Assembly: GCF_026625705.1 (NCBI RefSeq)
Contig: NZ_CP113059.1
Coordinates: forward strand, 1,922,001 to 1,986,000
From: Pedobacter sp. SL55
GTDB taxonomy: Bacteria > Bacteroidota > Bacteroidia > Sphingobacteriales > Sphingobacteriaceae
Length of the DNA stretch: 64,000 nt
Direction of reading: 5' to 3'
Positions within the stretch are counted from its first letter, which is position 1; each line of letters begins with the position of its first letter. This document shows, piece by piece, positions 38,548 through 46,603 of this stretch. The translations under genes were made by a program, and so were the position numbers. Below the pieces are notes generated by a model. The model saw only the letters and a program-made list of their open reading frames with translations. It made no database searches and was not told the origin of the DNA.

Positions 38548-39042
38548 CTAATGCGGCAGTTTATCCCTCAGTAAACCATACACCCAAGTGCCTGCAATAG
38601 CGCTCAAAAGTGTTACCGAAATTACGGTTGCACCCGTGCCAATTTGGGCGAAAAGTGGCCCCGGACAAGCACCTGTTACTGCCCAGCCCAAGCCAAACAG
38701 TAAACCACCATAAATTTGACCTTTGTTAAAAGTTTTTGGATGAAATTCGATGGTTTCGCCGTAAATGGTTTTGATGTTGAATTTTTTAATCAACCAAATA
38801 GAAATTGTACCTACTAAAATAGCACTGCCAATAATGCCATACATGTGGAAAGATTGCAGGCGGAACATTTCTTGAATACGGAACCAACTTACTACTTCGG
38901 ATTTTACGAACACTACGCCAAATAGCAGTCCCACAATTAAGTATTTAAGGTTGTGGTACCACTTGTGCGTTAAGTGACTTTCGTTTACACAAATGGTATC
39001 TAAAGATCTTACTTCAAAATCTGTATTTTCTTGATTTTTCAT
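38548..39042 (-). CDS. YeeE/YedE family permease, second half (PmpB-like)
   Basis: A 164-residue integral membrane protein (four to five helices) of the YeeE/YedE sulfur transport family, DUF6691 type. The conserved Cys lies in TGACPGPLFAQIGTG. It starts 4 nt after the other YeeE half and both would together make one permease for thiosulfate, sulfide or persulfide-type sulfur. Similar gene pairs accompany the ETHE1/rhodanese genes of BigR- or PmpR-controlled loci. Confidence 0.88.
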   Translation of the reverse strand: MKNQENTDFEVRSLDTICVNESHLTHKWYHNLKYLIVGLLFGVVFVKSEVVSWFRIQEMFRLQSFHMYGIIGSAILVGTISIWLIKKFNIKTIYGETIEFHPKTFNKGQIYGGLLFGLGWAVTGACPGPLFAQIGTGATVISVTLLSAIAGTWVYGLLRDKLPH

Positions 39043-39046
39043 AACA

Positions 39047-39610
39047 TTAAAGTGCTAAAATGTGAGGTAAAATTAAATTGGCCATGATAAAGCCGCCAAT
39101 CATAAAACAAATGGTTGCAACTAAAGAAGGCCATTGCAAGTTTGATAAACCCATAATGGCATGTCCGCTGGTGCAGCCGCCAGCATAACGCGTACCAAAA
39201 CCTACCAAAAAGCCACCAACTACCATCAATAAAAACCCTTTTAAGCTTAGTAATGCAGGCCAGTTCATAATGTCTTCTGGCACTAGGTTATTATAATTGG
39301 TAATACCGTAGCCAGATAATTCTGTAACTAACTTAGGATTAACTTGAATAGGGTTGGGGTTTGCAAAAATGCTTATGGCCAGTAAGCCACCCAGCAATAT
39401 GCCGAACACAAAAAATAAGTTCCAAGCCTCTTTCTTCCAATCGTATTTAAAAAACGGAATGTTTGCCGGCACACAAGCGGCACAAATGTGCCTTAACGAT
39501 GAGCTAATACCAAAAGACTTGTTGCCCAATATCAGCAGTGCAGGTACGGTTAAACCAATTAGCGGTCCAGCAATGTACCAAGGCCAAGGTTGCTTTAAAA
39601 ATTCTAACAT
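39047..39610 (-). CDS. YeeE/YedE family permease, first half (PmpA-like)
   Basis: A 187-residue membrane protein with the family signature [16 protein letters not shown], in which the Cys is part of the sulfur relay path of YeeE-type channels. Helices are visible at about residues 9-30, 55-80, 105-128, 145-160 and 165-184. It is the first gene of a two-gene unit whose promoter carries one of the three operator-like repeats of the sulfur cluster. Confidence 0.88.
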
Positions 39611-39637: not shown

Positions 39638-39687
39638 CAAAGGTGCAATATCGAAACTGTAAGTTCGGTTACTTTGGTTACACAAGG
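39638..39687 (-). promoter_or_regulatory. Promoter and operator-like site of the YeeE pair
   Basis: The + strand reads GTTACTTTGGTTACACAAG at 39668-39686. On the minus strand this contains GTAAC-CAAA-GTAAC, and 30 nt after it ends a TTTG (39638-39641 as CAAA) in the -7 position. The same sequence and spacing occur at 43356-43404 and 44517-44565. Confidence 0.75.
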
Positions 39688-39739
39688 AGATTGTTTTAAA
39701 GTTCTCATTCTTAATTATTGATGTGTAGCGTAGATTTAG

Positions 39740-40298
39740 GCCAATTTCCTCGTCTCGAGCGCAGCCGAGCGGTCTTTTAAGCTTAAATTGTAGCGATGGG
39801 TTAAATGTCAAATCCAAAAATACTTCTACTTTAGTTTCTTATCGGATATACATAAATATTAAGCTGTTTTTCGCTCTATGCCGCGAGGCATTTTACTTTT
39901 GAGGCATCAAAAGTAAACAAACCCGGAGCGCAGCGTAGCTCATTCATGCCAATTAAAATATTAATAGATGAATAAATGCTTTTCAATCCCGCTATGTGCC
40001 TTTTCACAAGCCAACGCTCATCAAAAAAACAGTGGCATTTCGTTTTGCTAGCAATTCCTAAAACATTGTTTGTGCAAACCCCAACGCAAAACCACTGCGT
40101 TTAAGATTTGGTAGTGCTATTTTTTCTGTTGTGCTCCTGTTTTTTTGATTTAGCTGGCACTGGGGATTGACGGACGTGCTTAGCTTAAGACAGCAATATA
40201 TGAACTGACCTTAGCAAAATGCCAAAATGCAATGAGTAAAATTATGTTTCCACGATACATCCCCAAAAGCACTCTGACTTAAAGCTCTAAAATTAACT
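39740..40298. other. Repeat-like 560-nt gap without a gene
   Basis: No gene is supported. The blocks GAGCGCAGCCGAGCGGTC (about 39757), ATGCCGCGAGGCATTTTACT (about 39880, a palindrome around CGCGAGG), GAGGCATCAAAAGTAAACAA and CGGAGCGCAGCGTAGC look like an interspersed repeat of the kind found after Bacteroidota operons. Confidence 0.5.
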
Positions 40299-41009
40299 TT
40301 ACTTCAACTGCTTACGTACCGTAGTTTCCTCAACAAAACCTAAATTATCCCAAACTAATTTTTCGTTTTTATAGAGTTTAAGTACAGGTAGTGCCTCAAT
40401 TTTTAGATTTTTGCAAAGGTCAATGTTGGCATCGGCATCAATACGTACAATTACCACTTTATTGGCCATGTCTTTAGCTATTTTATCTAAATAAGGTTTC
40501 ATTTTCTTACAAGGTATACACCAATCCGCATAAAAATCTATCAATACCATTTTGTCTGATTTTAATAGCTTTTCGTATTGTGCTAAAGTCATTCCTTTGG
40601 TTGCTGTTGCATTGGTATCTTTGGTTTCTGGTAAGTTGTTGGTTCGCCATTCCATCATCCCGCCAGGCATTTCTACTATGTTTTTAAAGCCTACGGCACT
40701 TAATTGTTTTACCGCAATTTTGCTTCTGCCGCCACTTAAACAATATACGTAAACAGGTTTTGTTTTGTCTAGTGCGGCAATTTTATCTTCAAAATGTTTA
40801 TCGTTAATGTTGGCATTGATGGCATTTTGGATATGCCCATTTTTAAATTCACTTGGCGTACGAACATCAAGGAGTTGGATGTGGTGTTCTTTTTCGAGTT
40901 GTTTGGTCAATTCGGTAGCCGAAACACTAGTTATGGTAGGGGTGGTTTGAGCGTAACTGTAACTGGCTAAAATTATTGCGGCAACACAAATGAAAATACT
41001 TTTATACAT
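40299..41009 (-). CDS. Secreted rhodanese-thioredoxin fusion protein
   Basis: A signal peptide (MYKSIFICVAAIILASYSYA) is followed by a rhodanese domain with active-site Cys in YCLSGGRS and then a thioredoxin domain with DWCIPCKKMKP. It would work in the periplasm, moving sulfane sulfur or reducing persulfides and disulfides. The start at 41009 is chosen because it gives a clean signal peptide and lies 6 nt after the trxA stop; an in-frame ATG at 41078 would lie inside trxA. Last gene of a four-gene unit that starts with the MBL-rhodanese gene. Confidence 0.87.
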   Translation of the reverse strand: MYKSIFICVAAIILASYSYAQTTPTITSVSATELTKQLEKEHHIQLLDVRTPSEFKNGHIQNAINANINDKHFEDKIAALDKTKPVYVYCLSGGRSKIAVKQLSAVGFKNIVEMPGGMMEWRTNNLPETKDTNATATKGMTLAQYEKLLKSDKMVLIDFYADWCIPCKKMKPYLDKIAKDMANKVVIVRIDADANIDLCKNLKIEALPVLKLYKNEKLVWDNLGFVEETTVRKQLK

Positions 41010-41014
41010 AGATT

Positions 41015-41308
41015 TTATAGGTTTTGGGTAATTAATCTTTCTAAGTCGGCAACTGGAATTAAACCCGACTGGCGCCAAATGATATTTCCTTTTTTAAATA
41101 AAATGAGCGTAGGCACACCGCTTACTCGGTAGGTTGCTGCTGCTTGCTGATTTTTATCTACATCTATTTTAATGATACTGGCTTTATCGCCCACACGTTT
41201 TTTGAGGTCTGCTAACATAGGGGCCATCATTTTACATGGCCCACACCACTCGGCAAAAAAGTCTATTAAAACGGGTTTATCTTGATTGATGATTTCTTGA
41301 AAAGTCAT
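41015..41308 (-). CDS. trxA: Thioredoxin
   Basis: A 97-residue cytosolic thioredoxin with the active site WCGPCK (residues 21-26), the cis-Pro in [10 protein letters not shown] and the usual DVDKN and [12 protein letters not shown] segments. In this operon it probably regenerates persulfide- or disulfide-bearing partners, rather than serving as the main housekeeping thioredoxin. It lies 30 nt downstream of the methyltransferase gene. Confidence 0.92.
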
Positions 41309-41338
41309 GCCAAATATTTAATTACTTAGATAGGATAT

Positions 41339-41932
41339 TTACTTCTTTACAAAGTTGATAAAAACTTCTGTATTTGTTCTAGGCTTGATACTATTGTAAC
41401 AATCTTCCAATTTTTTGATGGAGAAATATTTTTCAAATAACGTTTGGTATTCGATGGTATTTCCTCCAAAAGGTGGGCCTTGTTTTTGGAAATCTACATT
41501 AAACAGCAGACCTATAATTTGCCCATTTTCTTTTAATAAGGATGCAGCTTGTGCTACATAATTTTGGCGCAACTTAGGATCTATGGCACAAAAAAAGGTT
41601 TGCTCAATCATTAAATCGTACTGGCCTTTATGCTCAAAAAAATCGCCAAGAATAATTTTTACTGATGGATTTTTGGCATATTTCTGTTGTAGCTGAGCTA
41701 CCGCTTTTGGAGCAATATCTATCAGTGTAATGTTGGTAAAACCATTTTGGAGTAACCAATTGGCTTCGTGAGCATTGCCACAACCCGGAATTAAAATAGC
41801 GGCATCTTTATTAGTGTATTGTGCCATATAAGTAATAATGGCGGGCGAGGCCATACCAATATCCCAGCCAGTTTGTTGGTTTTCCCAACGGCTATTCCAA
41901 AAAGATTGATCGAGTGGATGTGTCTGTTGCAT
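41339..41932 (-). CDS. TPMT-family S-methyltransferase
   Basis: A 197-residue SAM-dependent methyltransferase of the thiopurine/thiol methyltransferase family. The family blocks FWNSRWENQQTGWDIGMASP (residues 11-30), LIPGCGNAHEANWL (47-60) and EQTFFCAIDPKLR are clear. TPMT-type enzymes methylate thiols, thiocyanate, iodide or sulfide. In a persulfide operon, detoxifying methylation of sulfide or small thiols is the reasonable inference. It starts 8 nt after the MBL-rhodanese gene. Confidence 0.87.
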   Translation of the reverse strand: MQQTHPLDQSFWNSRWENQQTGWDIGMASPAIITYMAQYTNKDAAILIPGCGNAHEANWLLQNGFTNITLIDIAPKAVAQLQQKYAKNPSVKIILGDFFEHKGQYDLMIEQTFFCAIDPKLRQNYVAQAASLLKENGQIIGLLFNVDFQKQGPPFGGNTIEYQTLFEKYFSIKKLEDCYNSIKPRTNTEVFINFVKK

Positions 41933-41940
41933 AATGCTTT

Positions 41941-43329
41941 TTAATCTGTAAGTTTTGTATTAGCCAACCATTCTTTCATACCGCCCGAGAAGTTTTTTAC
42001 ATCGTTGAAACCATTTCTCCTTAAAATGGAATAGGCAATGGCAGCACGATCGCCACTTTGGCAATGGATGATGACCTGCTTATCTCTACTAATTTTATCT
42101 AGGTTATCTTGCAAAGTACCAACAAAAATAGGTTCTGCACCTTCAATATGTCCATCTTGGTATTCTTTCGAATTACGTACATCAACAATTTGTACATCAT
42201 CTTTACCTAAATAAGTTTTAAATGTTGCTAAATCAATCACATCGGCGGTTTGTAGCTCAATGTCTAAATCATCAACGCTTTCAACAAAGCCATAAATATG
42301 GTCAAGGCCAATGCGCATTAGTTTTCGTGTAATTTCTTCCATCTCGCTAGCATTGGCAACTAAAATAAACTGTTCTTGGTAGTTTAAAATCCATCCCGCC
42401 CAAGTGGCTAAGCTATTGTTATGTTGTATGTTTATACTGCCCGGTAAAAATCCTTTTGCAAAATCAGCTTTGTTGCGGGTATCAATTACTTTTAGGCCGT
42501 CTGCATAAGCTTTTTTAAATTCTGCTGCGGTTAATTTGTTATGTTTTGGCACTTCAACTAGTAATGGTCTTTCTACTTTGTTAAGGTGTTTCATCATGGC
42601 AAAATATTTAGGTGGCTCAGGTTGGCCTTCCAATAAATAAGCTACAAAGCCAGCTTCATCGTTCTCGTATTTAAAAGCCCAATTTCTAATTTTTTCGTAA
42701 CCTACGGTTGAGCTTGGCACCGATCCCAAAGCCTTACCACAGGCAGAACCCGCACCGTGGCCTGGCCAAACTTGAATAAAAGGTGCTAATTCGGCAAAAC
42801 GTTGTACCGATTGGTACATTTGTTTAGCACCTTTCTCTTGCGTACCTGCTAAGCCGGCTGCTTTCTCTAGTAAATCTGGTCTTCCAATATCGCCTACAAA
42901 AACAAAATCGCCCGTAAAAATCATTACTGGTTGGCTAGTTGCCGGATGATCTGTTAATAAAAAACTGATGCTTTCTGGTGTATGGCCAGGGGTATGTAAA
43001 ACCTCTAAAGTTAAGTTGCCCACCTTAATTATATCGCCATGCTTTAAGCCAACGTGATCAAATTGGTATTGCCAATCTGTGCCGCCTTCGTCTGATAAAT
43101 AGAGTTGAGCGCCCGTAACGGCAGCCAATTCTCTAGAACCCGCTAAGAAATCGGCATGGATATGCGTTTCGGTAATTTGGGTAATTTTAAGGTTGTTTTG
43201 CGCTGCAATTTTTAAGTAAACGTCTACATCGCGTTGTGCATCTATTACAATGGCGTTGCCTTTGGCTTGGCAGCCGATGATATAGCTCGCTTGAGCTAAA
43301 CTTTTATCGTATACGTGTTGAAAAAACAT
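41941..43329 (-). CDS. MBL-fold hydrolase with two rhodanese domains (persulfide dioxygenase-like)
   Basis: First gene of the four-gene sulfur unit. The MBL domain has TETHIHAD (His56, His58, Asp60), HTPGHTPESI, FTGDFVFVGDIGRPDL and WPGHGAGSACGK. Two rhodanese domains follow: the first lacks an active Cys, the second has Cys423 in HCQSGDR. It is a paralogue of the protein at 3837-5252 with the same architecture. Expected role is oxidation of persulfide sulfur to sulfite, linked to sulfur transfer by the rhodanese domain. Confidence 0.9.
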   Translation of the reverse strand: MFFQHVYDKSLAQASYIIGCQAKGNAIVIDAQRDVDVYLKIAAQNNLKITQITETHIHADFLAGSRELAAVTGAQLYLSDEGGTDWQYQFDHVGLKHGDIIKVGNLTLEVLHTPGHTPESISFLLTDHPATSQPVMIFTGDFVFVGDIGRPDLLEKAAGLAGTQEKGAKQMYQSVQRFAELAPFIQVWPGHGAGSACGKALGSVPSSTVGYEKIRNWAFKYENDEAGFVAYLLEGQPEPPKYFAMMKHLNKVERPLLVEVPKHNKLTAAEFKKAYADGLKVIDTRNKADFAKGFLPGSINIQHNNSLATWAGWILNYQEQFILVANASEMEEITRKLMRIGLDHIYGFVESVDDLDIELQTADVIDLATFKTYLGKDDVQIVDVRNSKEYQDGHIEGAEPIFVGTLQDNLDKISRDKQVIIHCQSGDRAAIAYSILRRNGFNDVKNFSGGMKEWLANTKLTD

Positions 43330-43355
43330 AAGTTTTGAATATTTAAGTGATGATA

Positions 43356-43404
43356 CAAATTTGCGACTAATAGTTTTGTAGTACAGTTACTTTGGTTACA
43401 CAAG
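43356..43404 (-). promoter_or_regulatory. Promoter and operator-like site of the MBL-rhodanese operon
   Basis: The + strand reads GTTACTTTGGTTACACAAG at 43386-43404. On the minus strand a TTTG (43356-43359) ends exactly 30 nt after the GTAAC-CAAA-GTAAC core, as at the other two sites. Identical to the YeeE site over 19 nt. Confidence 0.75.
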
Positions 43405-43710
43405 TGAGGTTATTTTTATGAAGTGTTAATTTTTTTGCTCGCCGCCGCTGGGCTCTTACTTTTTTTCAGAATTTCTTTATGTTTTTAATTGCCTTCAAGC
43501 TTGCTTCGCAGGTTGACCGCAAAATTAACAAAACCGGAGTTTACGGAGCTCATCAGCTTTGCTGATAAACTCTCGGCTGCGCCCTGTTCTATTAAAGTCA
43601 GAATGTATGCTTATTATTGCTACCCGAACAGGCCAAGGCCGATTTTAGGTAAACGGAGATGTTTTGCTAAGGCTGGAGTTGATCTACCGTGCAAGTCTGT
43701 TAAAATCACG
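43405..43710. other. 306-nt gap between the sulfur operons
   Basis: I see no gene. A rightward frame over 43489-43785 runs into the TauE gene and has no recognisable protein features. The DNA is less AT-rich than other gaps and contains CGCCGCCGCTGGGCTC and a small GCTCATCAGC-TTTGCTGATAA inverted block near 43550. It may be degenerate sequence. Confidence 0.4.
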
Positions 43711-44499
43711 TTACTTCAAAATGGTTTCTTTCATCAAAATATAAACGCCCATTACCAGAACAAACCAGCCAAAAGCAGGTTTTAGGTTTTTGCCCTCTAT
43801 TTTGGTAGATAGGTAACTGCCTATAAAAATGCCGATAATTGCAATAAAGGTAATGGTTAGTAGAAACGACCATTGGATTTGGCTTTGACTAATGGAGAAG
43901 ATAAAACCTGCCAAAGAATTTACAGCAATAATAAGTAGCGATGTACCAATGGCTGTTTTAATAGGTAACCTTAATAAATTAACCAAAGCTGGGATAATTA
44001 AAAAGCCACCACCGGCACCAATTAATCCGGTTACTATGCCTACAGCCGAGCCTTGTATAATTATTGATAAGGCTGTAGTTTGCGGTAGTGTGGTATTGTT
44101 TTTTGTATCTTTTTTAATCATGCTGTAAGCTGCAAAAAGCATGAGCACCGCAAAAAATACCATCAGTAAAATAGATTTGGTTAACAAGAAGTTTTCTACC
44201 TGAATTACGTTTTCGGGTATAGCGGGTAGCAAGAAATGTCTTGTTAAAAATACGGTAACAATTGAAGGTAGGCCAAAGTAAATGGCGGTGTTTAAATCAA
44301 TTAATCTTTTTTTAAAGTAAGAGAATGAACCTGCCAAGCTGGTAGAGCCTACCACAAATAGCGAATAGGTGGTGGCCAGAACTGTATCTACCGCAAAGAG
44401 GTAAACTAAAACCGGTACGGTTAAAATGCTGCCGCCGCCCCCAATTAAGCCCAGCGAAATGCCTATGAGAATTGAAGCCAAATATCCTGTTATTTCCAT
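43711..44499 (-). CDS. TauE/SafE family sulfite/sulfur-compound exporter
   Basis: A 262-residue membrane protein of about eight helices in two repeats, each starting with a glycine-rich helix: LGLIGGGGSILTVPVLVYL and TGLIGAGGGFLIIPALVNL. This is the TauE/SafE family, whose members export sulfite, sulfoacetate or related anions. In this neighbourhood it probably removes sulfite produced by the persulfide dioxygenase. It has its own promoter with the shared operator-like site. Confidence 0.9.
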   Translation of the reverse strand: MEITGYLASILIGISLGLIGGGGSILTVPVLVYLFAVDTVLATTYSLFVVGSTSLAGSFSYFKKRLIDLNTAIYFGLPSIVTVFLTRHFLLPAIPENVIQVENFLLTKSILLMVFFAVLMLFAAYSMIKKDTKNNTTLPQTTALSIIIQGSAVGIVTGLIGAGGGFLIIPALVNLLRLPIKTAIGTSLLIIAVNSLAGFIFSISQSQIQWSFLLTITFIAIIGIFIGSYLSTKIEGKNLKPAFGWFVLVMGVYILMKETILK

Positions 44500-44516
44500 G
44501 TTTTACTTTGATGGTT

Positions 44517-44565
44517 CAAAGCTAGTGCAAAGCCAAAAGGAATACAGTTACTTTAGTTACACAAG
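44517..44565 (-). promoter_or_regulatory. Promoter and operator-like site of the TauE/SafE gene
   Basis: The + strand reads GTTACTTTAGTTACACAAG at 44547-44565, one base different from the other two sites. The minus-strand TAGCTTTG (44517-44524) matches TAnnTTTG perfectly and its TTTG ends 30 nt after the core. The site overlaps the last codons of the Crp/Fnr gene. Confidence 0.78.
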
Positions 44566-45180
44566 GGTAATTTTGTTTCTGCCTAGTTTCACAGTGCCTT
44601 GGTCTTCTAGCTGTTTGAGCAAGCGAGAAACCACTACCCGTGCCGTACCCAACTCATTAGCCAATTGCTCGTGTGTGATGGCAATAATTTTGTTGTTGGT
44701 AAGTTCAGCTTTTTTGTACAGCAGGTTAAGCAAACGTTCATCTACTTTTTTAAAGGCAATGGCGTTAACAACTTCTAGTAATTCTTCGAAACGTTTGTGG
44801 TATAAGCGGAAAATATAGTCTAACCATTGCGGATATTCCTTGATAAAAAGGGAAACCTTATCTATTGGTAAAAATAATATCTCGGCATCTTCTTCCACTT
44901 CGGCCTTTACCTTGCTGGTTTCGTTGTGCATGCCACCCAAAAAAGACATGATGCAGCTTTCGCCAGCTTTAATGTAATACAGTAAAATCTCTCTGCCATC
45001 TTCTTCGGTGCGAATAACCTTCATACTGCCCTTAGTTACAATAGGGATAGCCCTGATGTGTGCATTTTCATTCAAAATCACGCTGCCAGCTGCATAGGTT
45101 TTCATGATGCTGTTTTCGTACAGTTTCTTGATTAGCTCTGGCGATGATTTTAGTTCTTCTACTTGATTGAGATTTTCCAT
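44557..45180 (-). CDS. Crp/Fnr family transcriptional regulator
   Basis: A 207-residue regulator with a cyclic-nucleotide-binding-like beta barrel (about residues 20-130), a dimerisation helix and a winged HTH whose recognition region is THEQLANELGTARVVVSRLLKQLEDQG. It has a single cysteine, Cys76 in GESCIMSF, so an FNR-type four-cysteine Fe-S cluster is excluded. It lies at the head of the sulfur cluster, directly upstream of TauE/SafE. It is the best candidate to bind the GTTACTTTGGTTACACAAG sites. Its signal may be a persulfide or oxidant acting on Cys76, but that is inference. Confidence 0.9.
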   Translation of the reverse strand: MENLNQVEELKSSPELIKKLYENSIMKTYAAGSVILNENAHIRAIPIVTKGSMKVIRTEEDGREILLYYIKAGESCIMSFLGGMHNETSKVKAEVEEDAEILFLPIDKVSLFIKEYPQWLDYIFRLYHKRFEELLEVVNAIAFKKVDERLLNLLYKKAELTNNKIIAITHEQLANELGTARVVVSRLLKQLEDQGTVKLGRNKITLV

Positions 45181-45335: not shown

Positions 45336-46603
45336 ATGAACCGATTTTTATATGGTATCGACTTTGGTACCACCAATTCTGCTTTGGCTATTTACAACGA
45401 AGATTGAAAGAAATTCACAGTACCATCATTATTCCTTCGTTAATTTATTTCTATCATCAACTAAATACTGGCGAAGAAAAAAATTACGTAGTAGGAGAAG
45501 AAGCCATCAGCGCTTACTTGAAAGATGGTATGAGAGGCCGTTTCATCAAATCTATTAAACAAATTCTTTCTCGAAGTAGCTTTACCGAAACCCGCATTCA
45601 TAATAGGAAATATAATGCTTCAGATTTGGTAGCCATTATTTTAAAAGAACTTAAAAGCAGAGCTGATGATATTGTGGGGCAAGATGTGCAAAAAGCGGTA
45701 ATTGGAAGACCTGTTTTCTTCGATGACGATAACGTACAGAAAGATACTTTAGCGCAGAACAGACTAGACAAAGCCGCAACACTTGCTGGTTTTACCGAAG
45801 TTCGTTTTCAGTTTGAACCCATAGGGGCGGCTTTTGCCTACGAGCAAACTTTAGCCAAAAAAGAGCATGTGCTGGTTGGAGATTTAGGTGGCGGTACTAC
45901 CGATTTTACTTATTTGATTTTAGATCCTGCAAAAGTTGGGAGTAAAGACCGTAAAAAAGACATGATGGCTACTGGCGGTATTTACGTGGGAGGCGACAGC
46001 TTCGATTCGGCTTTTATGTGGGAAAGAGGAACACCTTATTTTGGTAAAAACACCACTTACGAAGCCACGCCTGGCAAAGTGCTAACTGTTCCTAAATCTT
46101 TGTTTGCAAACATCTGTTCGTGGGAACAAATGAACTTTTTTAATGGTCAACGCATAAGAAAAGATATTGATGATTACTATTATTTTTCTGGTAAAGACAA
46201 GAAGTTTAAAAACTTGATTACGCTAATCGAAAACAACTTGGGTTACTCGGTATTTCAAGCTATTGAGCAAGCAAAAATTACTTTATCTACTGAGCAACAA
46301 GCACGGTTTGCCTATCATCAAATGGAAATAGAGATTGATGAACAGGTTTCGTTAACAGCGTATGAACAAATTATACAAAAAGATGTAGATAGGATTGCGA
46401 GTTATCTGGAAGAGTTTCTTCAGCAAAATAAGATTGATGTGGCGAATATAGATAGTTTGTTTTTAACTGGCGGTACTTCTATGGTGGCAAGTATTCAAAA
46501 CCTATTTAAAAGTAAATTTCCACATCTTAAATTAAACTCGGGAGATAACTTTAAAAGTGTTGCCAAAGGTTTAGCTTATAGTGGCTATTTATTTGAGGAT
46601 TAG
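45336..46603 (+). pseudogene. Hsp70-family (YegD-like) chaperone, frameshifted as read
   Basis: An actin-fold ATPase of the short Hsp70/YegD type. The gene begins MNRFLYGIDFGTTNSALAIY, the first phosphate-binding loop, then breaks at about 45404 where a T is missing (AACGAAGATTG would read NED then LKEIHSTIIIPS). The rest continues in the other frame with the second phosphate loop VLVGDLGGGTTDF and the adenosine loop LTGGTSMVASI. Restoring one base gives 422 residues, near the YegD length; the Hsp70 substrate-binding domain is absent, as expected for this type. A sequence error is likely. Confidence 0.87.

Follow-up and report, generated by a model that had tools for sequence, protein, structure and literature searches.

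Pedobacter sp. SL55 carries, within a 64,000-nucleotide stretch of its genome (contig NZ_CP113059.1, positions 1,922,001 to 1,986,000 of the forward strand; hereafter the window, numbered from its first letter), three near-identical operator-like sites that precede a TauE/SafE-type transporter gene, an operon headed by a metallo-beta-lactamase (MBL)-rhodanese gene, and a pair of YeeE/YedE-type sulfur transport genes. The Crp/Fnr-family protein encoded beside them at 44557-45180 is, in our judgement, likely to be the dedicated regulator of this reactive-sulfur regulon and a class II activator. We infer that this protein would bind as a dimer to a pseudo-dyad centred about 41.5 bp upstream of the transcription start and would activate the sigma-A (TAnnTTTG) promoters of the TauE/SafE gene, the MBL-rhodanese operon and the YeeE pair. 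The signal would most likely be reactive sulfur species, that is, sulfide-derived persulfide or polysulfide, sensed perhaps through modification of the invariant residue Cys76. What computation established, as described below, is the site together with its spacing, conservation and coupling to the protein, and the conservation of Cys76.

Operators, promoters and genes of the locus

Scanning of the window located copies of GTTACTTTGGTTACACAAG without mismatch at 39668 and 43386 and with one mismatch at 44547, compared with a mean of 0.02 matches at up to three mismatches in shuffled windows. When R was allowed at the variable base, perfect matches in the whole genome (4,440,388 bp) were confined to these three places; ten matches were found at up to three mismatches, the remaining seven with three mismatches each, and the reversed control yielded six. 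The minus-strand form of each site is TGTAAC-(C/T)AAA-GTAAC, and at all three the TTTG end of a -7 box lies exactly 30 nt past the core. A composite pattern consisting of the core, 23 nt, A, 2 nt and TTTG had exactly three matches in the genome, at window positions 39638-39682, 43356-43400 and 44517-44561. The three sites of the original prediction thus proved to be the sole close matches in the 4.44-Mb genome, the composite scan bore out their common 30-nt spacing, and Pfam scans confirmed the YeeE pair, the MBL-rhodanese operon and the TauE/SafE gene after them. The third site is not purely intergenic, since it includes the crp stop codon. The features of the locus are as follows.

44557..45180, minus strand: Crp/Fnr-family regulator, 207 aa (Pfam cNMP_binding and HTH_Crp_2; fold; Cys76 conservation)
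44953-44955, minus strand: codon of Cys76, within the Crp/Fnr gene
44635-44637, minus strand: codon of Val182, the specificity residue, within the Crp/Fnr gene
44547..44561, minus strand: operator 3, TGTAACTAAAGTAAC, before TauE; includes the crp stop codon at 44557-44559 (pattern and composite scans; comparison of loci)
44517..44524, minus strand: -7 box of promoter 3, TAGCTTTG (composite scan and sequence)
43711..44499, minus strand: TauE/SafE-type transporter (Pfam PF01925, 153 bits)
43386..43400, minus strand: operator 2, TGTAACCAAAGTAAC, before the MBL-rhodanese operon (pattern and composite scans)
43356..43363, minus strand: -7 box of promoter 2 (composite scan)
41941..43329, minus strand: MBL-rhodanese protein, predicted persulfide dioxygenase/rhodanese (Pfam; near full-length PDB matches 3tp9 and 3r2u)
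41339..41932, minus strand: TPMT-like methyltransferase of the MBL operon (PF05724)
41015..41308, minus strand: thioredoxin of the MBL operon (PF00085; TIGR01068 above cut-off)
40299..41009, minus strand: rhodanese-thioredoxin fusion, last gene of the MBL operon (PF00581 and PF00085)
39668..39682, minus strand: operator 1, TGTAACCAAAGTAAC, before the YeeE pair (pattern and composite scans)
39638..39645, minus strand: -7 box of promoter 1, its TTTG end 30 nt past the operator core (composite scan and sequence)
39047..39610, minus strand: YeeE/YedE-type sulfur transport protein, first of the pair (PF04143)
38548..39042, minus strand: YeeE/YedE-type sulfur transport protein, second of the pair (PF04143 and DUF6691)

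The MBL-rhodanese protein is matched over nearly its full length by 3r2u_A (query residues 1-452) and 3tp9_A (2-454), and by ETHE1 (4chl) over part of the MBL domain. By this full-length homology, and by the order of an MBL domain followed by rhodanese domains, the protein has the architecture of CstB, which we take to be the protein of PDB entry 3r2u.

Conservation of the site and its link to the Crp/Fnr protein

Searches with the Crp/Fnr protein covered 121 genomes of the family and 395 of the class, and an alignment of 25 Crp sequences was run against the contigs of named genomes, from which the best 80 of at least 560 confirmed stretches were used. Further loci came from 20 regions of the family search, from 58 of the 93 class genomes with a match at E<=1e-45 (three of these 93 being already in the sample), and from two paralogue loci. 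Twelve loci with identical crp DNA were removed before counting, leaving 149 distinct loci; near-identical loci were retained.

The pattern TGT(A/G)AC-nAnn-GTn(A/G)C was matched by 188 distinct contexts across these loci, compared with three for the reversed pattern. The TTTG end lies exactly 30 nt past the core in 162 of the 188, in each case with the A of TAnnTTTG three bases upstream of it, and TTTG with that A otherwise occurs twice at 29 nt and once at 31 nt. TTTG is also found at 14 nt in 22 contexts; the conserved A is frequent only at 30 nt (162 contexts, at most two at any other spacing). Where the identity of the Crp protein is at least 70% (114 loci), a site lies within 150 nt before the start of 66 of 67 TauE genes and 64 of 77 MBL-rhodanese genes, and random points have one in 88 of 5,700 cases. 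The check proposed with the original prediction, a search for the site upstream of homologous genes in relatives, thus found it before most TauE and MBL starts. A promoter-positioned site is present in 104 of the 114 loci, and in 76 a site falls at the crp stop codon. Among the 395 class genomes the composite pattern occurs 121 times in 87 genomes, versus two listed matches of the reversed control, and it co-occurs with Crp matches at E<=1e-45: both are found in 47 genomes, Crp only in 46, the site only in 40 and neither in 262.

Three near-identical copies within 5 kb might also be read as recently duplicated promoter DNA that has no regulatory function. The comparative data refute this explanation: the copies differ in sequence between operator and -7 box, and far relatives retain both operator and spacing.

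The GTAAC-N4-GTAAC core of the original prediction describes the sites of the window and fails as the general form, since the right half in relatives is mostly GTAGC or GTAAC, with GTARC in 125 of the 179 sites of loci whose Crp protein has Val182. The sites fit a consensus CTTnTGTRAC-nAAw-GTnRC-TGTA with a strong left half and a relaxed right half. A direct repeat as the general core was ruled out by the GTARC right half together with a change of the mirror base in Glu182 loci (see below), and a Crp-type pseudo-dyad is the better reading of the core. Its logo is a poor palindrome, and a symmetry score put the centre at 7.5 third rather than first; the pseudo-dyad reading therefore draws on knowledge of the family and on covariation, not on symmetry.

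In Flavobacterium psychrophilum the TAnnTTTG element occupies positions -12 to -5, according to passages of PMC9723704. The dyad centre lies 36.5 nt upstream of the last G of TTTG, and with this G at -5 the site would be centred at about -41.5. Class II activators of the CRP/FNR type are centred at about -41.5, and the fixing of the site to the promoter at this position in relatives (162 of 188 at 30 nt) suggests the same class here. Activation is favored by the rigid distance between site and box, and we consider class II activation by the Crp protein probable; the original claim of a fixed position upstream of the promoter has thus held in relatives, with a centre that fits activation.

The same protein and sites could instead serve repression, with the bound protein blocking RNA polymerase until sulfur releases it, as for BigR or CstR. 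The site overlaps the -33 region, and BigR, according to passages of PMC5823870, is a repressor of an operon encoding the Blh dioxygenase and TauE. However, repression would not need the invariant distance from site to box seen in 162 of the 188 contexts, and a centre at -41.5 is that of class II activators of the CRP/FNR type. In addition, the last C of the operator takes the first position of what would be a -33 TTG, so that the triplet reads CTG, a weak point because the search pattern fixes that C. We regard repression as an unlikely alternative to activation.

The coupling of site and protein is most evident at residue 182 of the recognition helix, whose equivalent in CRP, Glu181, reads the equivalent base pair. 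Val182 goes with A at base 3 of the left half (TGTAAC) in 175 of 179 sites, Ala or Ser182 with G (TGTGAC) in 19 of 19, and Thr182 is mixed, with two A and six G. In many loci base 3 lies inside the crp stop codon, a potential confound that was countered by sites more than 60 nt from that codon, where Ala or Ser182 goes with G in 11 of 11 and Val182 with A in 90 of 92. In Glu182 loci the dyad mate at index 12 is C in five of six sites, compared with eight of 179 in Val182 loci, giving a GTGAC half-site; this mirror-base change fits what a Crp dyad predicts. The exceptions to the covariation are L131, L206 and L218, which pair Val with G, and L232, which has C. In the first three the right half is GTCAC, producing symmetric sites. 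These TGTGAC-N4-GTCAC sites stand at promoter position (L131:1536, before a peroxiredoxin gene; L206:3634; L218:4068) and may possibly serve another Crp/Fnr protein.

The covariation was placed on a tree of 143 rows from which residues 180-186 had been masked. The best tree has seven changes of residue class and nine of base class over 120 rows. In 200 random pairings the base changed in the same direction in a mean of 1.7 pairs and in the opposite direction in 0.0, one printed pairing containing one opposite pair. A sign test on the independent pairs cannot reach 0.05, and with so few of them the Fisher P values for the covariation overstate independence. As a pattern the covariation thus appears strong; as a formal test it carries moderate weight.

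Several counts weigh against the proposed regulon or against its control by this protein. Among the 114 loci with Crp identity of at least 70%, ten have no promoter-positioned site, 13 of the 77 MBL starts have no site, and only four of the 52 YeeE starts have a site of their own; many loci have the YeeE pair downstream of MBL. Only six of the 15 Glu182 loci yielded a site and nine gave none, and only two independent pairs of residue-182 switches fall on well-supported (starred) branches. In the class, a composite site is missing from 46 of the 93 genomes that have a Crp match at E<=1e-45, and such a Crp match from 40 of the 87 that have a composite site. The last count would be expected if a DNA-binding protein other than the neighboring Crp used the site. 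The cut-off, however, omits paralogues of 33-34% identity that have composite-type sites themselves, which may account for some of the site-only genomes; site and Crp co-occur in the class, and the covariation of residue 182 with base 3 holds for sites at the crp stop codon as well as for those more than 60 nt away. Use of the site by another protein is therefore very improbable. The co-conservation of site and protein and the covariation instead support the original assignment of the sites to the adjacent Crp/Fnr protein, and we hold it very likely that this is a real, conserved regulon in which the link between regulator and site is well supported.

The putative sensor protein and its candidate signal

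The Crp/Fnr protein combines a predicted cNMP-type sensor barrel with a Crp-type helix-turn-helix, placing it in the Crp/Fnr superfamily, and its best PDB match is 3dv8. CRP contacts cAMP through Glu72, Arg82 and Ser83; in the HMMER alignment to 4bh9, CRP Glu72 corresponds to Phe80, which is kept in 135 of 142 orthologues (at least 55% identity), and Arg82 to Lys90, so that the protein does not appear to be a cAMP-responsive CRP. FNR has four cysteines for a 4Fe-4S cluster and the window protein has one, which separates it from that type also. Its fold and single cysteine likewise set it apart from BigR, SqrR and CstR, which are ArsR- or CsoR-type proteins with a reactive cysteine pair. The sole cysteine is Cys76, as the original prediction had stated, and this residue is invariant in all 142 orthologues, of which 115 have exactly one cysteine, 25 have two, one has three and one has four. 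In the structure model Cys76 directly precedes helix 77-84 of the ligand-binding barrel, a region that corresponds to the part of CRP holding the cAMP phosphate. Persulfide sensing through Cys76 is plausible from this position, and we put it forward tentatively.

The genes that follow the sites indicate what the regulon serves. When similar sites were included, 205 were counted and an open reading frame followed in 195, and representatives of first-gene groups that lacked a label were assigned by Pfam scan. The first gene belongs to the MBL/rhodanese cluster in 75 cases and to the TauE cluster in 69. The others are YgaP-like transmembrane proteins (15), DUF6132 (11), OsmC-like proteins (7), YeeE (4), Crp itself (4), peroxiredoxin (2), outer-membrane efflux (2) and single cases (6). 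The outer-membrane efflux gene is of TolC type, and a site precedes it in two Flavobacterium loci (L113:9814 and L117:9856).

A second Crp subfamily, 33-34% identical and found in two family genomes (L244 and L245), lies among genes read as TauE, MBL-rhodanese and YeeE, and the sites there have the 30-nt geometry as well. The L244 locus also has an SQR-like gene, read from its sequence rather than by a family search, and a SoxA/TsdA-type cytochrome assigned by Pfam. The Crp proteins of both loci carry a GDTC/GETC motif with further cysteines nearby, and L244 has a shortened MBL gene with a transposase-like gene pair next to it. The target genes and these sulfur loci of the paralogues make reactive sulfur the most likely signal, which we consider probable, and the site-associated genes in relatives support the sulfur regulon of the original prediction.

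The most closely related characterized protein appears to be PgRsp of Porphyromonas gingivalis, a Crp/Fnr protein of 207 aa with Cys76, Met78 and His85 that was modelled on 3DV8 (passages of PMC6955866) and is described as a redox-sensing protein in passages of PMC12040651. The window protein shares its length, these three positions and the nearest structure. An orthologue in P. gulae (L134) is likewise of 207 aa with C76, M78 and H85, has Ala182, and has TGTGAC sites before TauE and MBL-rhodanese; through it, PgRsp very probably belongs to this Crp family. The published targets of PgRsp differ: they are hmu, bcp and its own promoter (passages of PMC6955866). These targets add to the points counted against the proposal above, as does the SQR content of the window's genome, where no clear SQR of the L244 type was found, the one match being partial and weak (E 6e-6). 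The words TauE, rhodanese and sulfite are absent from the main text of PMC6955866, and the parts of that paper we drew on give no DNA motif or sulfur genes for PgRsp.

These properties of PgRsp bear on whether the signal is instead heme, redox state, oxygen or nitric oxide (NO), with the sulfur genes belonging to a general redox response of the kind described for PgRsp. Heme binding by PgRsp and the redox sensitivity of its mutant (passages of PMC6955866) speak for this, as do the peroxiredoxin and OsmC genes that are also preceded by the site in some relatives. Against this, passages of the same paper report that heme has no effect on the binding of PgRsp to DNA and that the single mutants of Cys76, Met78 and His85 retain heme binding, and 144 of the 195 first genes fall in the MBL/rhodanese and TauE clusters. 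A signal of this kind is possible and, in our estimate, rather unlikely; reactive sulfur is preferred.

Comparable gene sets are controlled by other regulators elsewhere. The cst operon of Staphylococcus aureus contains genes for a TauE-related transporter and a persulfide/sulfur dioxygenase under CstR, a CsoR-type repressor, and BigR and SqrR likewise control a TauE-related transporter together with a persulfide/sulfur dioxygenase. BigR, with two conserved cysteines, and SqrR are ArsR-type repressors, whereas the protein described here is a one-cysteine, Crp-type protein with activator geometry. In contrast to the class II promoters of Escherichia coli CRP, which have a GTGA half-site, the half-site here is GTAAC, the promoter is of the Bacteroidota sigma-A type, and Phe80 stands at the position of Glu72. 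NtcA of cyanobacteria, a sensor of nitrogen status that responds to 2-oxoglutarate and binds GTA-N8-TAC, resembles the window protein in profile match and in its GTA half-site, and differs in its targets. The window's genome has no match to PF02583 (CsoR/CstR) and four matches to PF01022 (ArsR-type), none of them inside the window. The suggestion that the Crp protein replaces BigR is no more than consistent with these matches. Among the papers listed in a survey of the open-licence PMC literature, no title or abstract connects TauE, MBL-rhodanese or YeeE of Bacteroidota with a Crp/Fnr regulator.

Distribution and meaning of the module

A close orthologue of the protein (best E <1e-100) is present in three of 14 sampled genomes of the genus, that of the window included, and the module is therefore patchy. 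Among the named Bacteroidota genomes, represented by the best 80 of at least 560 stretches, the Crp-TauE-MBL-YeeE neighborhood is conserved, and carriers include Pedobacter, Sphingobacterium, Parapedobacter, Flavobacterium, Chryseobacterium, Elizabethkingia, Niabella, Capnocytophaga and Porphyromonas. Five loci from Pedobacter and Flavobacterium (L046, L085, L086, L091 and L094) share a near-alike layout of Crp-TauE-(about 4.6 kb)-MBL-TPMT, the crp DNA of L086 being identical to that of L091, and one genome (G105) has two Crp loci of this type. The alike layouts and the two loci in one genome suggest horizontal transfer of the module. The crp DNA is also identical in L100, L102 and L188, which include Pedobacter nutrimenti and Chitinophagaceae bacterium PMP191F, and again in genome G487; this identity reflects either recent transfer or a mislabelled record.

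Beside the locus, a DnaK/Hsp70-like gene at window positions 45336-46603 is split: an ATG near 45336 is followed by the motif GIDFGTTNS and a stop near 45405, and the remainder lies in another frame. This is a frameshift, a sequence error or a decayed gene.

The analysis names a regulator, a site and a promoter geometry for the handling of reactive sulfur in many Bacteroidota, together with a one-base, one-residue specificity code that is directly testable. In the 76 of 114 loci where the operator overlaps the stop codon of its own regulator, the base read by the protein also sets whether that stop is TAA or TGA. A broader proposal, which we advance with reserve as possible, although less than probable, is that a Bacteroidota-wide Crp/Fnr subfamily including PgRsp may sense persulfide through an invariant cysteine in the nucleotide-pocket region and act as a class II activator of persulfide-detoxification genes. 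If true, this proposal would give Crp/Fnr proteins a mode of sulfur sensing that has no counterpart in the titles and listed abstracts of the literature surveyed. It would also provide a concrete new hypothesis for PgRsp, which would be reassigned from heme and redox sensing to the sensing of reactive sulfur.

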